From Methanothermobacter sp. (lineage in GTDB: Archaea; Methanobacteriota; Methanobacteria; Methanobacteriales; Methanothermobacteraceae): a stretch of 64,000 nucleotides of DNA. Positions 7,751 to 12,873 of the stretch are shown piece by piece (position 1 is the stretch's first letter; each line of letters begins with the position of its first letter). A program made the position numbers and the translations under genes. The stretch covers positions 1-64,000 of the forward strand of contig NZ_JASFYE010000001.1 of NCBI RefSeq assembly GCF_030055425.1, in the 5' to 3' direction. Under the pieces are notes generated by a model. It worked only from the letters and a program-made list of their open reading frames with translations. It was not told the origin of the DNA and did no database searches.

Positions 7751-8638
7751 TCAGAAACTGTAGAGCTTGTTGAGGAGCTCAAGGGTAACGGACTCCATCT
7801 CCCTCTCATCCAGTTTCTGGAATATTTCAACAGCCCCCCTGAAACCTGATGCAACACCCTCAGGGTTGTTCTCTATAAAGTCGAGGACCCCCATGAGGAC
7901 CATTACAACGGCAAGTCCCATATCATTGTTTGTATTTTTGAAAAGATCCTCTGCCTTCTTAAGGTACTTTCTTGACTCGCTGAAATCCTCATTTTTAAGT
8001 GAATAGGCCCCCAGGAGCAGGAGCAATGACGCCTCTGTGGCTGTATCGCCAATATCCCTTGCAATCTGGTAGGCCTCCCTTATCTGGGATATGGAGTCCT
8101 CATAGGACTGTGACTGGTACATTGTAAGTGATTCAACCCTTTCCACGAGTCTGTCCAGGAATGGCTCGATGGCACCGAGGTCCACCTCTGCCATCTCAGG
8201 TTCAGCCTCCTCCTGGAGGCGGTTGAGGCTTGCTATATCTATGGCCTCCCTGATCTTTTCGACCTCCTTGATCTTTTCCCTCAGATCCTTTCTGAGTGGT
8301 GAATTAACAGAGTTATAAATCCGGAGCGCCTCCTTAAAGTACTCCATTGCAGTCTTGATTTTCCTATCACTGAGGTAGACGTCACCCATGGAGTCGAGGG
8401 CAAAAGCCATGAGCTCCTCGTCATTCATGTCCGAGGCCACCTTGTAGGCCCTTTCAAGGTAATCAAGTGCCTCACGGGTATCGCCCTCATCAGCATAAAA
8501 GGTGGCTATCCTTATGAGGGTGTCAAATTCCTCCTCAAGGAGTTCCTCAAGTTTGCGCAGGTACTTCTCCAGTGATTCGCCGCCCTCATCTCCCTTGAGA
8601 AAATCAAATATGCTCAGAATAATTAATATCATCTTCAC
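7751..8638 (-). CDS. TPR-repeat protein
   Basis: A 295-residue soluble helical protein built from TPR-like repeats: residues about 38-100 (ATFYADEGDTREALDYLERA, then DSMGDVYLSDRKIKTAMEYF) and about 180-260 (AREIGD-like, LLGAYSLKNEDFSESRKYL). A short hydrophobic N-terminus (MILIILSIFDFL) could be a weak anchor. No catalytic motif. It lies 143 bases downstream of the KaiC/GTPase/roadblock cluster on the same strand and could supply a protein-interaction scaffold for it; that link is inference. Confidence 0.65.
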   Translation of the reverse strand: MKMILIILSIFDFLKGDEGGESLEKYLRKLEELLEEEFDTLIRIATFYADEGDTREALDYLERAYKVASDMNDEELMAFALDSMGDVYLSDRKIKTAMEYFKEALRIYNSVNSPLRKDLREKIKEVEKIREAIDIASLNRLQEEAEPEMAEVDLGAIEPFLDRLVERVESLTMYQSQSYEDSISQIREAYQIARDIGDTATEASLLLLLGAYSLKNEDFSESRKYLKKAEDLFKNTNNDMGLAVVMVLMGVLDFIENNPEGVASGFRGAVEIFQKLDEREMESVTLELLNKLYSF

Positions 8639-8781
8639 AGCCCCGGATGTTCTAATAAAATATTATGTGGATATTAATTTAAATAGATATCCGCTAAAAG
8701 GAATCTGACAGTTAAACATCAGCCCATTGGAAATCTACAGCCAGAATCACCCCACAAATAAAAAGACATTAAGGAGTACCA

Positions 8782-9468
8782 TCAGCCCACCAGAAGACCC
8801 TGTTCACCTATCCTGTAGGGCGCCTCCCTGGTCCCTGAGGGGGTACTGGCAGATATCATGGAGCCATCCATGCGGATATGCACATCAAAGAGGTCAGGGA
8901 TCGCATTCTCTATTTCTGGATCAGCAACCCCCTCTGTGTAGGCCACCAGTCCTATTCCTTTAGCCTCCCTCACACGGTTATTGTAGGCCTTGAGCACCCT
9001 GAGCACAAGCCGCGGGGGGTTGAATGCCAGGAGAATTGATGCAGAGTCAAATGCTGAAAGGAATATGGCTGATTCCTGGTAGAGGCTCCTTGTGGCTATA
9101 CCGACCTTGACCATGAGGTCTGTGGTGTTCTGAAGGGCCGAATACCTTATGTTCCCTGAATCCTGGGGTTTACCACCTCCAAGTCCTGTTGGGAGATCAA
9201 TTACATGCATTTTATCACTGAAGGTCTGGATGAACCAGTTAAAGGCCATCGTATTCCTCTGCAGGTCCCTGTAACCATATTCTGCCGCTATGAAGAGACA
9301 TGGGTTTCCAGCCTGGAGTCCCCTGTAGATGAACTCCATTGCAAGTACGGATTTGCCTGCCTTGGGGGGACCTGTGACCAGCATGACTGAACCAGGCTCC
9401 AGTTCACCCAGGATATCATCAAGTCCAGCTATACCGGTGGTGTAGTTCTCACTCATGATATCCCTCAT
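8782..9468 (-). CDS. KaiC/FlaH-like RecA-fold ATPase (second copy)
   Basis: A 228-residue single-domain RecA-superfamily ATPase of KaiC-like type, the same size as archaellum FlaH. N-terminal GIAGLDDILGE is the family signature. Walker A is GPPKAGKS at about residues 32-39; the Walker B-type strand is less clear (IFLSAFDSAS). Its ATG at 9468 overlaps the upstream TGA (ATGA), so translation is coupled; an ATG at 9456 with GAGGG upstream may be the real start. It is paralogous to the next gene upstream (matching stretches such as the Walker A region and YTEG.ADP). Probably a nucleotide-dependent switch partner of the GTPase and roadblock proteins. Confidence 0.75.
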   Translation of the reverse strand: MRDIMSENYTTGIAGLDDILGELEPGSVMLVTGPPKAGKSVLAMEFIYRGLQAGNPCLFIAAEYGYRDLQRNTMAFNWFIQTFSDKMHVIDLPTGLGGGKPQDSGNIRYSALQNTTDLMVKVGIATRSLYQESAIFLSAFDSASILLAFNPPRLVLRVLKAYNNRVREAKGIGLVAYTEGVADPEIENAIPDLFDVHIRMDGSMISASTPSGTREAPYRIGEQGLLVG

Positions 9469-10160
9469 GGGTTGACCTTAAGGCCCTTATCGTCTATGGT
9501 GTAGGGGGCACTGGCCCTTCCGACTCCTATCATGGCCTCAACTGTAAGTTCAGATCCATCGAGGTGTATTATGTTATCCACAACTGCCTTGAGCATGGTC
9601 TCAACCTTGGGGTCTGCTGATCCCTCGGTGTAGGTGACAATGGCAGTTCCGCCAGCGTCCTTGATCCTCATTATGTATGCTGTGAGGACTCGGACTATCA
9701 GCATCTCATCATTGAATGCCATTAGAGTTGTGAGGGAGTCCAGGACAGACCTGAATATGCTGTAGCCTGCAGTTATGTTCCTTATGGCAACCCCCAGTTT
9801 CACCATTATATCGGTAGGGTTATTCACAGATGATGAAAGATAGGTGTTGCCAGCATCAGATGCAGGTCCTGAGATGCTTGATATCGCGTCTATCACATAT
9901 AGGAGTTCATTCTCCATGTAACTCTCAGCATCCATACCAAGAACCTGCATGTTCCTCTTGAGGTCCGCCAGGCCATAGTCTGTGGATATATAGAGACAGG
10001 GTTCACCCCTATCAGCACCCCCAGCCGCGAAACCATAACTGAATATTGATTTACCAACCTTCGGGGGCCCATAGACAAGTGTAACAGTATTTTCAGGGAT
10101 CGCACCCCCACCAATGAGTTCATCAAGGCCCCTTATTCCTGAGGGAATTCTAACAATCAT
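9465..10160 (-). CDS. KaiC/FlaH-like RecA-fold ATPase (first copy)
   Basis: A 231-residue KaiC-like single-domain ATPase. It opens with IPSGIRGLDELIGGG and has Walker A GPPKVGKS near residues 31-38 and a hydrophobic strand ending in LDSLT as the Walker B-type element. No second CI/CII domain and no transmembrane segment. Starts immediately after the stop of the GTPase fusion gene and overlaps the paralogue downstream by 4 bases, so the three are one operon. Size and fold resemble FlaH (ArlH), the archaellum motor nucleotide switch, but no archaellum genes are in the window. Confidence 0.75.
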   Translation of the reverse strand: MIVRIPSGIRGLDELIGGGAIPENTVTLVYGPPKVGKSIFSYGFAAGGADRGEPCLYISTDYGLADLKRNMQVLGMDAESYMENELLYVIDAISSISGPASDAGNTYLSSSVNNPTDIMVKLGVAIRNITAGYSIFRSVLDSLTTLMAFNDEMLIVRVLTAYIMRIKDAGGTAIVTYTEGSADPKVETMLKAVVDNIIHLDGSELTVEAMIGVGRASAPYTIDDKGLKVNP

Positions 10161-11342
10161 TTAACCACCATAGAGAAGTCCGAGGAGGGTTTCAAGTGCT
10201 TCTTTAACTCCCAATCCCTCTTTGAGTGAAACAGGTATTATAGGGACATCACCTCCAAGCTTCATCCTTGTTCTTATCTCATCAGGTGAGAGTGCCCCTG
10301 GAAGGTCCTGTTTATTGGCAACCACAACCTTTGGTATGGCCTCTGCCCTTGTCTTTCTTATCATCTCCTTGGCCCTAGCGAAGGTTTCAGGTGCGGTTGA
10401 GTCCACAAGTATGAATGCCCCAACAGCCTCCCTTGAGAGAACATCCAGTATTAGGTCGAATCTCTCCTGTCCTGGTGTACCGAAGATATCCGCCATGAAC
10501 CCCTTATACTCGAGGTGACCTATGTCCATTGCAATGGTCGTTGGGAACGCCGAGAGGGCCTTTCTGTCAACAGAAACTGCTTTTGTGGATATGGACTTCA
10601 CAAATGTGGATTTCCCTGAATTGTAGGGACCAGTCACCAGTATCTTGGGCACATAGACCTTAACTCCACCTGGCTGTACAACAAAGAAGAGAACCATGGT
10701 TTCAGGGGGCTTGGACCAGTCAGAATGGGCAACCATGAACCCCTGTCCTATTATGACCCTCTCCTCAATGGTCCTCAGATCAACGACACAGTCCATCAGT
10801 GATCTCAGTTTATCCATCAGCTCCCTTTCATAGTCCCATTCAGTGAAGAGGTAGACAAGGTTGACATCCAGTTCAGAGGCCCTCCTGTTCCATGCCTCAA
10901 CAATTTCAAGGGTCTCACCGTTGCCCAGGTAATCTATTATTACAGATAGGCAGTTTATTACCCCCACACCACCAGGAATATCCTCTATTGCACTCAGAAC
11001 TGTTTCCTTTATCTCTGAGTAATCACTGACAGTGTAACGCTCCTCTGATGGCATTCCAAGGAAGGGCGAACTTCCATCAACAAAAAACATGTTCCCATTC
11101 TCAATGTGGGCCTCTATGTCCCAGCCATAGGATCTGAATTCATATATTATGCTCTCAGGTTCCTCAACGTTGGTGAATATGAACCCCTTCCCACCCTCAC
11201 CAAGGCGCCCGTTGAGCATCTGGTAACCGAATGCCTCATAGTCAACTCCGGGGGATGCCGAGAACATCACAGAAGCCCCCTCCCTCACTCCGCCGCCCAG
11301 GAGGTCGTCGAGTTTCGGGATGTAAGTCCTCTTCATGTTCAC
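10161..11342 (-). CDS. KaiC-like domain fused to MglA/CvnD-type small GTPase
   Basis: A 393-residue two-domain protein. Residues 1-205 form a KaiC-like domain ([11 protein letters not shown] at the start), but where Walker A should be it reads [10 protein letters not shown], lacking the P-loop Lys and Ser/Thr, so it probably does not hydrolyse ATP. Residues 231-393 form a small Ras-like GTPase: P-loop GPYNSGKS (238-245), G3 region [10 protein letters not shown] (285-294), NKQD (343-346) and PVSLKEG (370-376). The FGTPGQ signature is the one I know from the COG2229/CvnD and MglA-like group. It overlaps the roadblock gene by 4 bases. Probably a GTP-dependent switch with a built-in adaptor domain. 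Confidence 0.8.
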
Positions 11343-11716
11343 ATCTCCCTTAGAATTTCATCAACCTGCGCTGCCCTTGAATCCATTTCAAAGAGCAGCA
11401 GACCAAGCTGTGCCTCCGGTTCTGCCAGGGCCGTGAATATGGCCTTCTCACCTGCAGGTTTGAGAATGATTATACCCTTCTCGGTTCTCACGGTTATCTC
11501 AGAAACGCCGCCAGTGTTCATCTGCCCTGATGCCGCCTCTGCAGCACCCATTATGGTTGAACAGAGGGCTGAGAATATCCTGGCATCAACATCTGGAGGT
11601 GTCCGTGCGTTTATGAGCAGCCCTTCCTTTGAAACAATACCTGCAGCCCTTATCTGACCGACCTGCATAAAAGCAGAGAGCACATCATCCAGTTTTTCCT
11701 TCTTTGTTTTGGCCAT
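11339..11716 (-). CDS. Roadblock/LC7-domain protein
   Basis: A 125-residue cytoplasmic protein covering one roadblock/LC7 domain ([18 protein letters not shown], then long helices and [19 protein letters not shown]). Proteins of this family act as partners or GTPase-activating proteins of small GTPases (bacterial MglB for MglA; CvnB in actinobacterial conservons). It sits directly upstream of, and overlaps by 4 bases, the GTPase fusion gene, as expected for a cognate pair. The ATG at 11716 follows GGGGTG; a TTG immediately upstream is the alternative. A TATA-like sequence near 11795-11805 suggests its own promoter. Confidence 0.85.
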
Positions 11717-11831
11717 CAATACACCCCAGTGACTCGGTAACCGGTATCAGGAAGTGTCCCCGGCGATGAGTATTACAGTTTAATTATGTTGTTAACCCTT
11801 TATATCAGTTTACATCTGGCTACGGTGTAAT

Positions 11832-12359
11832 CTAATGAGGAACCCACACCGCCTCAGATGTTGTGAAGACGTAGTGATATGAAAAGGCAGGGTTGTGGTA
11901 GGTACCGGTCAGGTTCTCTGTCCTGAAGGTCCGTGAGATGGATCTCCTCATACAGAAGTTCACCCTGTCAGAGAGGGACTCCCTCAGGAAAGACTCCATA
12001 GGTGGGCCAGAGAGCCATGCCCTCAGACGGAACTTCCTCCGCCCGTATGTGCTATTGTAGCCCTCGTCAATCATCTCAACCCTCAGAACCCTGACACCTG
12101 ATGGCTGGAGTAGGGCCGGCTTCTGGTTCTGGTACTCTTCAAAGGTAACAGCAGGGTAGACTGCAAGGGTGTCAGTAGTAACCCCCTCCAGGGCCCCTGT
12201 TTTAGCAGCTGAATGGGCCGCCAGGAGTTCAAGCTGCATTCCAGCCTGACCAGAGATGAGTATGGCAATGAGGAGCCCGGCACCTGTAAGTAGCAGGTAC
12301 TCAAGGGGTACCTGCCCTCCAGTGCAGCCATAGATATTATCTGCCCTCAGATTTGTCAC
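11832..12359 (-). CDS. Pilin-like protein with class III signal peptide
   Basis: A 175-residue exported protein. The N-terminus reads GG then QVPLEYLLLTGAGLLIAI: the Gln+1, Pro+3, Glu+5 pattern followed by a hydrophobic helix matches archaeal class III (EppA-processed) pilin signal peptides, whose consensus has Q, S or P, then E. The mature part is Ser/Thr and aromatic rich, with NLTGTYHNP near the end. GTG start. It follows another pilin-like gene and precedes the roadblock/GTPase cluster by 115 bases. Probably a surface pilin subunit; no assembly ATPase is visible nearby. Confidence 0.7.
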   Translation of the reverse strand: MTNLRADNIYGCTGGQVPLEYLLLTGAGLLIAILISGQAGMQLELLAAHSAAKTGALEGVTTDTLAVYPAVTFEEYQNQKPALLQPSGVRVLRVEMIDEGYNSTYGRRKFRLRAWLSGPPMESFLRESLSDRVNFCMRRSISRTFRTENLTGTYHNPAFSYHYVFTTSEAVWVPH

Positions 12360-12399
12360 AGATGAACCCCCCAGAGACTCCTCGTAGATATATCCAAGC

Positions 12400-12843
12400 T
12401 CAGAGCCTCACCTCCGAGACCATGAGGAGGGTCCTGTTATTTCTGCATGTGTTCCGTATTGAGTATTTCCTGCCTGCCTCAAGGTTAATTGATGCAGGGT
12501 TCCCCCTTGAGTCCGCAATGATAACAGGGCATATATCTGAGAACCCCCTGTAACCATCCGCCCAGCCATAGACCCCGGTTGAGTTGACCCTCAGCCTGTA
12601 GGCTGATGTGTGGTTGAGACGTGGTGGGAGTTCAACAACAACCTCACGGCCCGGGCCCCCTGCAACTGCAAGGTCAACGGCACATGCCACATCATCCATA
12701 AGTATGCGAAGTTCAAGAAGTCCCTCCTCATGGTGAACACCATCAATCCTTGAACCAGCAATGGCAACCATGGTGGATAAAAGCAGAACCATGAAAAATG
12801 TTGATGTTACGGCGTCAGCTAATAGAACTCCATGTGAATCCAT
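12400..12843 (-). CDS. Pilin-like or membrane-anchored secreted protein
   Basis: A 147-residue protein with a short N-terminus and one hydrophobic helix (ADAVTSTFFMVLLLSTMVAI), then an extracytoplasmic domain with two NxT/S sequons (NHT, NST). DSHGVLLAD before the helix resembles a pilin processing site (G, then acidic at +5), but this is weaker than in the downstream gene. The ATG at 12843 is chosen over an upstream ATG at 12909 because the extra residues are AT-rich and include the TATA element. First gene of the pilin/roadblock/GTPase cluster. Confidence 0.6.
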   Translation of the reverse strand: MDSHGVLLADAVTSTFFMVLLLSTMVAIAGSRIDGVHHEEGLLELRILMDDVACAVDLAVAGGPGREVVVELPPRLNHTSAYRLRVNSTGVYGWADGYRGFSDICPVIIADSRGNPASINLEAGRKYSIRNTCRNNRTLLMVSEVRL

Positions 12844-12861
12844 GATAGTAATTAATAAATT

Positions 12862-12873
12862 TTTATATATAAA
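12862..12873 (-). promoter_or_regulatory. TATA box for the pilin-like gene cluster
   Basis: The minus strand reads ATTTATATATAAA here, centred about 24 bases before the ATG at 12843. No Shine-Dalgarno sequence lies between, so the message may be leaderless. This is the strongest TATA-type element of the 8.8-12.9 kb cluster. Confidence 0.6.

Follow-up and report, generated by a model that had tools for sequence, protein, structure and literature searches.

A roadblock, KaiC-GTPase fusion and KaiC gene block beside pilin-like genes in Methanobacteriales: a candidate switch for archaeal type IV pili

Known roadblock-GTPase and KaiC systems, and the locus compared

The Ras-like GTPase MglA and the roadblock protein MglB constitute a polarity switch linked to type IV pili (T4P) and gliding motility in Myxococcus. 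Among MglA groups 1-5, groups 2-5 are marked by the GTPGQ and TT signatures (PMC4316618). The 2014 MglA survey was restricted to proteins of ≤240 aa, and reported no conserved neighbours for the archaeal group 4 (PMC4316618). A roadblock protein and a small GTPase are also found within one cluster in the actinobacterial conservon (CvnA-D), whereas in the archaellum the KaiC-superfamily ATPase ArlH (FlaH) is tied to a T4P-like machine. Both roadblock and KaiC genes had already been linked to T4P by Makarova et al. (2016; PMC4858521), who noted these genes in archaeal T4P loci and predicted them to be T4P-associated or T4P regulators.

Here, we describe a gene block of the same protein families in a Methanothermobacter genome, contained in the 64,000-nucleotide stretch of DNA that was analysed (the window). 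In this block, a roadblock protein, a fusion of a KaiC-like domain to an MglA-like GTPase, and KaiC-type ATPases, hereafter the putative switch, are encoded next to two pilin-like genes (PIL1 and PIL2). The Ras-like GTPase/roadblock pairing, the tie to type IV pili and the GTPGQ and TT signatures resemble MglA/MglB; unlike in that system, the GTPase shares its chain with an inactive KaiC domain, and KaiC ATPases are encoded alongside. The roadblock protein matches CvnB5 (1.4e-15), but neither a histidine kinase (CvnA) nor CvnC was recognised in the switch cluster. The ATPases are similar in size to ArlH, yet they score far under the ArlH cut-off, are much closer to KaiC, and lie outside any arl operon. 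No description of a triad with a KaiC-GTPase fusion was found in the literature examined, and it may figure in the account of KaiC hubs by Makarova et al. (2017).

The genes are arranged on the minus strand of 7751-12843 in the order PIL2, PIL1, roadblock, KaiC/GTPase fusion, KaiC1, KaiC2 and TPR. The first-pass annotation had listed the first six, and all of them were found on one strand in the order claimed; it had overlooked the gene of the TPR protein (7751..8638; TPR_12 8.4e-18), which is part of the conserved block. Four-base overlaps had been attributed to the last four of those six genes, and they do occur between roadblock and fusion and between KaiC1 and KaiC2, whereas fusion and KaiC1 abut with 0 bases between them. 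The 115-base gap 5' of the roadblock ATG (11717..11831, minus strand) was confirmed, together with its TATA-like element TGATATAAAGG, which is kept within the genus; pilins and switch are probably transcribed from separate promoters. Divergent from PIL2, a plus-strand gene at 12886-13335 matches McrC/methanogenesis marker 7 (7.9e-8) over no more than the beginning of that family.

Proteins of the putative switch

The roadblock/LC7 protein (125 aa; 11339..11716, minus strand; PF03259 2.3e-23) combines a Robl_LC7 domain with coupling to a small GTPase gene, as for MglB-type proteins. It does not carry the Asp-Gly pair of the group 2-5 partners, the residues being EG in Methanobacteriales and in a related Methanomassiliicoccales locus (L079, see below), and DG in most Thermoplasmatota rows.

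The adjoining gene (10161..11342, minus strand) encodes the 393-aa fusion, with a KaiC-like half (residues 1-227) and an MglA-like GTPase half (residues 228-393), and matches the Pfam families KaiC (1.2e-15), Arf (5.1e-11) and Ras (2.9e-9). At the P-loop position, the KaiC half displays an invariant PGVxxEAFG, and the Walker A lysine is lost in every orthologue. The GTPase half contains GPYNxGKS, PTT, GTPGQ and NKQD. Both GTPGQ (G3) and PTT are invariant in an alignment of 11 fusion sequences and in L079, the more distant L136 having GLPGL in place of the former; in PTT, the residue beside the G2 threonine is Thr rather than Arg. The GTPase half thus shows both GTPGQ and TT, as MglA groups 2-5 do, and the fusion stands outside the 2014 MglA survey because this was limited to proteins of ≤240 aa with a single domain.

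The single-domain ATPases KaiC1 (9465..10160; PF06745 1.3e-33) and KaiC2 (8782..9468; PF06745 4.5e-18), both on the minus strand, retain an intact Walker A. They had been described as FlaH-like, and they are indeed FlaH-sized; by sequence they are KaiC-type, the best PDB match being KaiC (7.5e-40, versus 1e-11 for FlaH). Their ArlH equivalog scores (46.5 and 22.3 bits) fall far short of the cut-off (215), and their identity as FlaH/ArlH was ruled out.

Pilin pair and conservation in Methanobacteriales

The first pilin-like gene, PIL2 (147 aa; 12400..12843, minus strand), more likely starts at 12843 than at 12873 as first annotated, since its MDSHG beginning corresponds to the MDxxG start common to most orthologues. 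Its product has a short leader, G followed by D at +5, a single N-terminal helix of 59 residues and a beta domain, and the AlphaFold2 model (pLDDT 83) likewise displays a long helix and a beta domain. DUF7266 was matched in 7 of 14 orthologues (best 4.7e-5). A PIL2 paralogue (G000:C8:33465-33836) lies in the pilin locus of the window genome, where its neighbours are class III pilin-like genes and a gene resembling a PP-loop ATPase, read by eye and not by profile; this neighbourhood fits the layout of the clade 1 T4P loci of PMC4858521. PIL2 therefore presents the features by which an archaeal type IV pilin is recognised, namely an N-terminal helix with a beta domain, and kinship with a pilin from a T4P locus. 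PIL1 (175 aa; 11832..12359, minus strand) is class III prepilin-like, its G/QVPLEYLLL belonging to a GQxxxEY-type motif conserved across orthologues; the Pfam Class III signal peptide family was matched at 0.042 in the window protein, below the cut-off, and at 0.0012 in the best orthologue. PDB fold searches with the PIL1 and PIL2 models gave no significant match.

The fusion was detected in 18 of 150 Methanobacteriales genomes, corresponding to 19 loci, and the roadblock-fusion-KaiC order followed by the terminal TPR gene is kept in 19/19. Two of these loci end at a contig edge; in all of the 17 that include upstream sequence, the pilin pair precedes the switch, in three families of the order. 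This conservation across three families makes the pilin-switch pairing more than a chance one. An extra KaiC-like gene separates pilin pair and switch in three of the 17 loci. Wherever PIL1 and roadblock are separate genes, the gap 5' of the roadblock gene measures 112-214 bases, or 112-187 bases when taken 5' of the extra KaiC in those three loci. The roadblock protein is the most conserved member (79-100% identity across the order) and the pilins are the least. Moreover, the roadblock gene was found in every genome bearing the fusion, and was absent from 130 of the 132 without it; as these Methanobacteriales are related to one another, the P value of the association is exaggerated.

Some loci and genomes depart from this layout. 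In genome G007 (L037:8888-9646), PIL1 and the roadblock gene form one continuous reading frame, the two KaiC genes seem to have merged, and the TPR frame is shorter; the joining and the merger are probably deletions. Genome G078 harbors two copies of the switch block (L042 and L048). The window genome has three further roadblock genes plus one solo MglA-like GTPase (G000:C5:65968, G000:C6:43087, G000:C6:48866 and G000:C1:159578), and neither a roadblock nor a KaiC gene was seen adjoining the solo GTPase.

The pilin pair is far more widespread than the switch. Of the 150 genomes, 141 have a match to PIL1 and 138 to PIL2, genera lacking the switch among them, and both genes were side by side in all 15 inspected genomes in which no fusion was detected. 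One of these 15 (contig G049:C56) reads PIL2-PIL1-KaiC1-KaiC2, with roadblock and fusion both absent. As nearly all genomes have the pilin pair and few have the switch, the latter is a block that only some of these wider-spread pairs have next to them, which points to an optional regulator; its description as self-contained in the first-pass annotation did not hold, given the pairs that stand without it. A T4P ATPase is encoded in 149/150 Methanobacteriales genomes, and in the window genome this gene and a TadC gene are located elsewhere than the switch block.

Thermoplasmatota loci and the function of the block

Outside Methanobacteriales, a genome scan retrieved the Methanomassiliicoccales locus L079 (51% identical), with the order roadblock, Ras-like GTPase, V4R, fusion, KaiC, KaiC, and with neither pilins nor T4P genes nearby. 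The fusion model matched 40 of 390 Thermoplasmatota genomes, although in G180 the match was confined to the GTPase half. Among 31 loci whose fusion reaches ≥330 aa, the fusion has a KaiC gene next to it on the same strand in 30, and a same-strand roadblock gene in 21, with the latter one or two genes off in 2 more. Six loci have T4P ATPase and TadC genes close by: in L125, L136, L143 and L146, a T2SSE-T2SSF-T2SSF row (ATPase-TadC-TadC) lies upstream of the triad, 27-67 bp from the roadblock gene, whereas in L130 and L131 T2SSE (ATPase) and TadC are downstream. The fusion tree places the T4P-linked loci in two separate clades, L130 and L131 having long branches and an uncertain pairing. With assumed gene and copy numbers, the probability of such adjacency by chance is 3e-6 to 1.5e-4 when loci are taken as independent, and 0.06-0.2 when two independent events are counted, so that chance could still account for it. 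The presence of T4P does not predict that of the switch, the T4P ATPase being far commoner (328/390 Thermoplasmatota genomes, in addition to the Methanobacteriales count above).

The first-pass annotation had proposed a switch for the pilin-like proteins. Setting aside its FlaH-like and self-contained attributes, what stands is a unit of roadblock, MglA-type GTPase and KaiC ATPases that is always found by the pilin pair in Methanobacteriales and by T4P ATPase/TadC genes in six Thermoplasmatota loci. Vicinity to pilins, then, is a feature of the relatives within Methanobacteriales; most Thermoplasmatota copies have neither T4P genes adjoining nor pilins, as judged by a simple motif scan of the available flanking sequence.

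Taken together, we favor the interpretation that the roadblock, fusion and KaiC genes constitute a cytoplasmic GTPase switch acting on type IV pilus function, with a probability of about 0.55. The conserved order in 19/19 loci, the pilin pair in 17/17 and the T4P linkage in two Thermoplasmatota clades argue for it, the last from a second phylum, as do the co-occurrence of fusion and roadblock across genomes (and their joint absence from G049:C56), the PIL2 paralogue in a pilin locus, the MglA group 2-5 signatures, and the roadblock and KaiC genes of archaeal T4P loci (PMC4858521). It is weakened by the much greater frequency of T4P and of the pilin pair without the switch, the Thermoplasmatota copies away from T4P (including L079), the probably separate transcription of pilins and switch, the chance estimate of 0.06-0.2, and the absence of significant matches in fold searches of both pilin models.

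The same observations leave room for a general KaiC-type signalling hub, i.e., a multipurpose switch with lineage-dependent outputs among which T4P would be one of several, and with the pilins as mere stable neighbours. The neighbours of most Thermoplasmatota copies are other genes, a Ras-like GTPase and V4R in the case of L079, and the pilin pair is widespread without the switch; the invariable pilin linkage in Methanobacteriales and the separate T4P linkage in another phylum make this the less probable explanation. Alternatively, the switch might regulate another envelope process, e.g., wall or glycan synthesis, via the MraY-like gene that flanks the block in nearly all Methanobacteriales loci. 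That gene is on the opposite strand, it also adjoins pilins where the switch is lacking (directly after them, at the place of the switch block, in several of the 15 fusion-free loci), and none was observed near the Thermoplasmatota triads, all of which renders such a role improbable. A KaiC-based timing system driving periodic expression, suggested by the likeness of the ATPases to KaiC, is more improbable still, as these are single-domain, no KaiA- or KaiB-like gene was recognised in the block, and KaiC clocks are not known to include a fused GTPase.

For a switch acting on pili, which is probably the archaeal kin of MglA/MglB pilus control in bacteria, we infer binding, activity and direction of control as follows. 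The roadblock dimer would bind the MglA-like GTPase half and set its nucleotide state, in the manner of MglB, while the dead KaiC half would dock the fusion onto the active KaiC ATPases, probably within a ring. The ATP state of the KaiCs, or a signal reaching them perhaps via the TPR protein, could gate the GTPase, whose GTP form may act on the pilus assembly ATPase/TadC platform. The pili so controlled would, in Methanobacteriales, contain the two neighbouring minor-pilin-like proteins, and the switch would tune pili while being dispensable for their assembly. A broader and more tentative proposal is that of an archaeal switch class that brings an MglA-type GTPase into KaiC rings by way of an inactive KaiC domain, coupling ATP and GTP states and controlling T4P in two phyla. 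If true, MglA/MglB-type control of type IV pili would extend to archaea, archaeal MglA-like GTPases would gain a conserved gene neighbourhood, and archaeal pili, whose control is little understood, would have a concrete candidate regulator.

Further gene arrangements were observed in Thermoplasmatota. The genes at L079:7486-10940 form an operon-like row, in which the Ras-like GTPase matches Pfam Ras at 8.9e-40, and in L122, too, a V4R gene separates roadblock from fusion; a kinship of V4R with Bet3, a TRAPP subunit, has been suggested. The fusions of L151, L152 and L153, which are without a roadblock neighbour, form a divergent group; their partners are a KaiC gene and a Rab-like GTPase.
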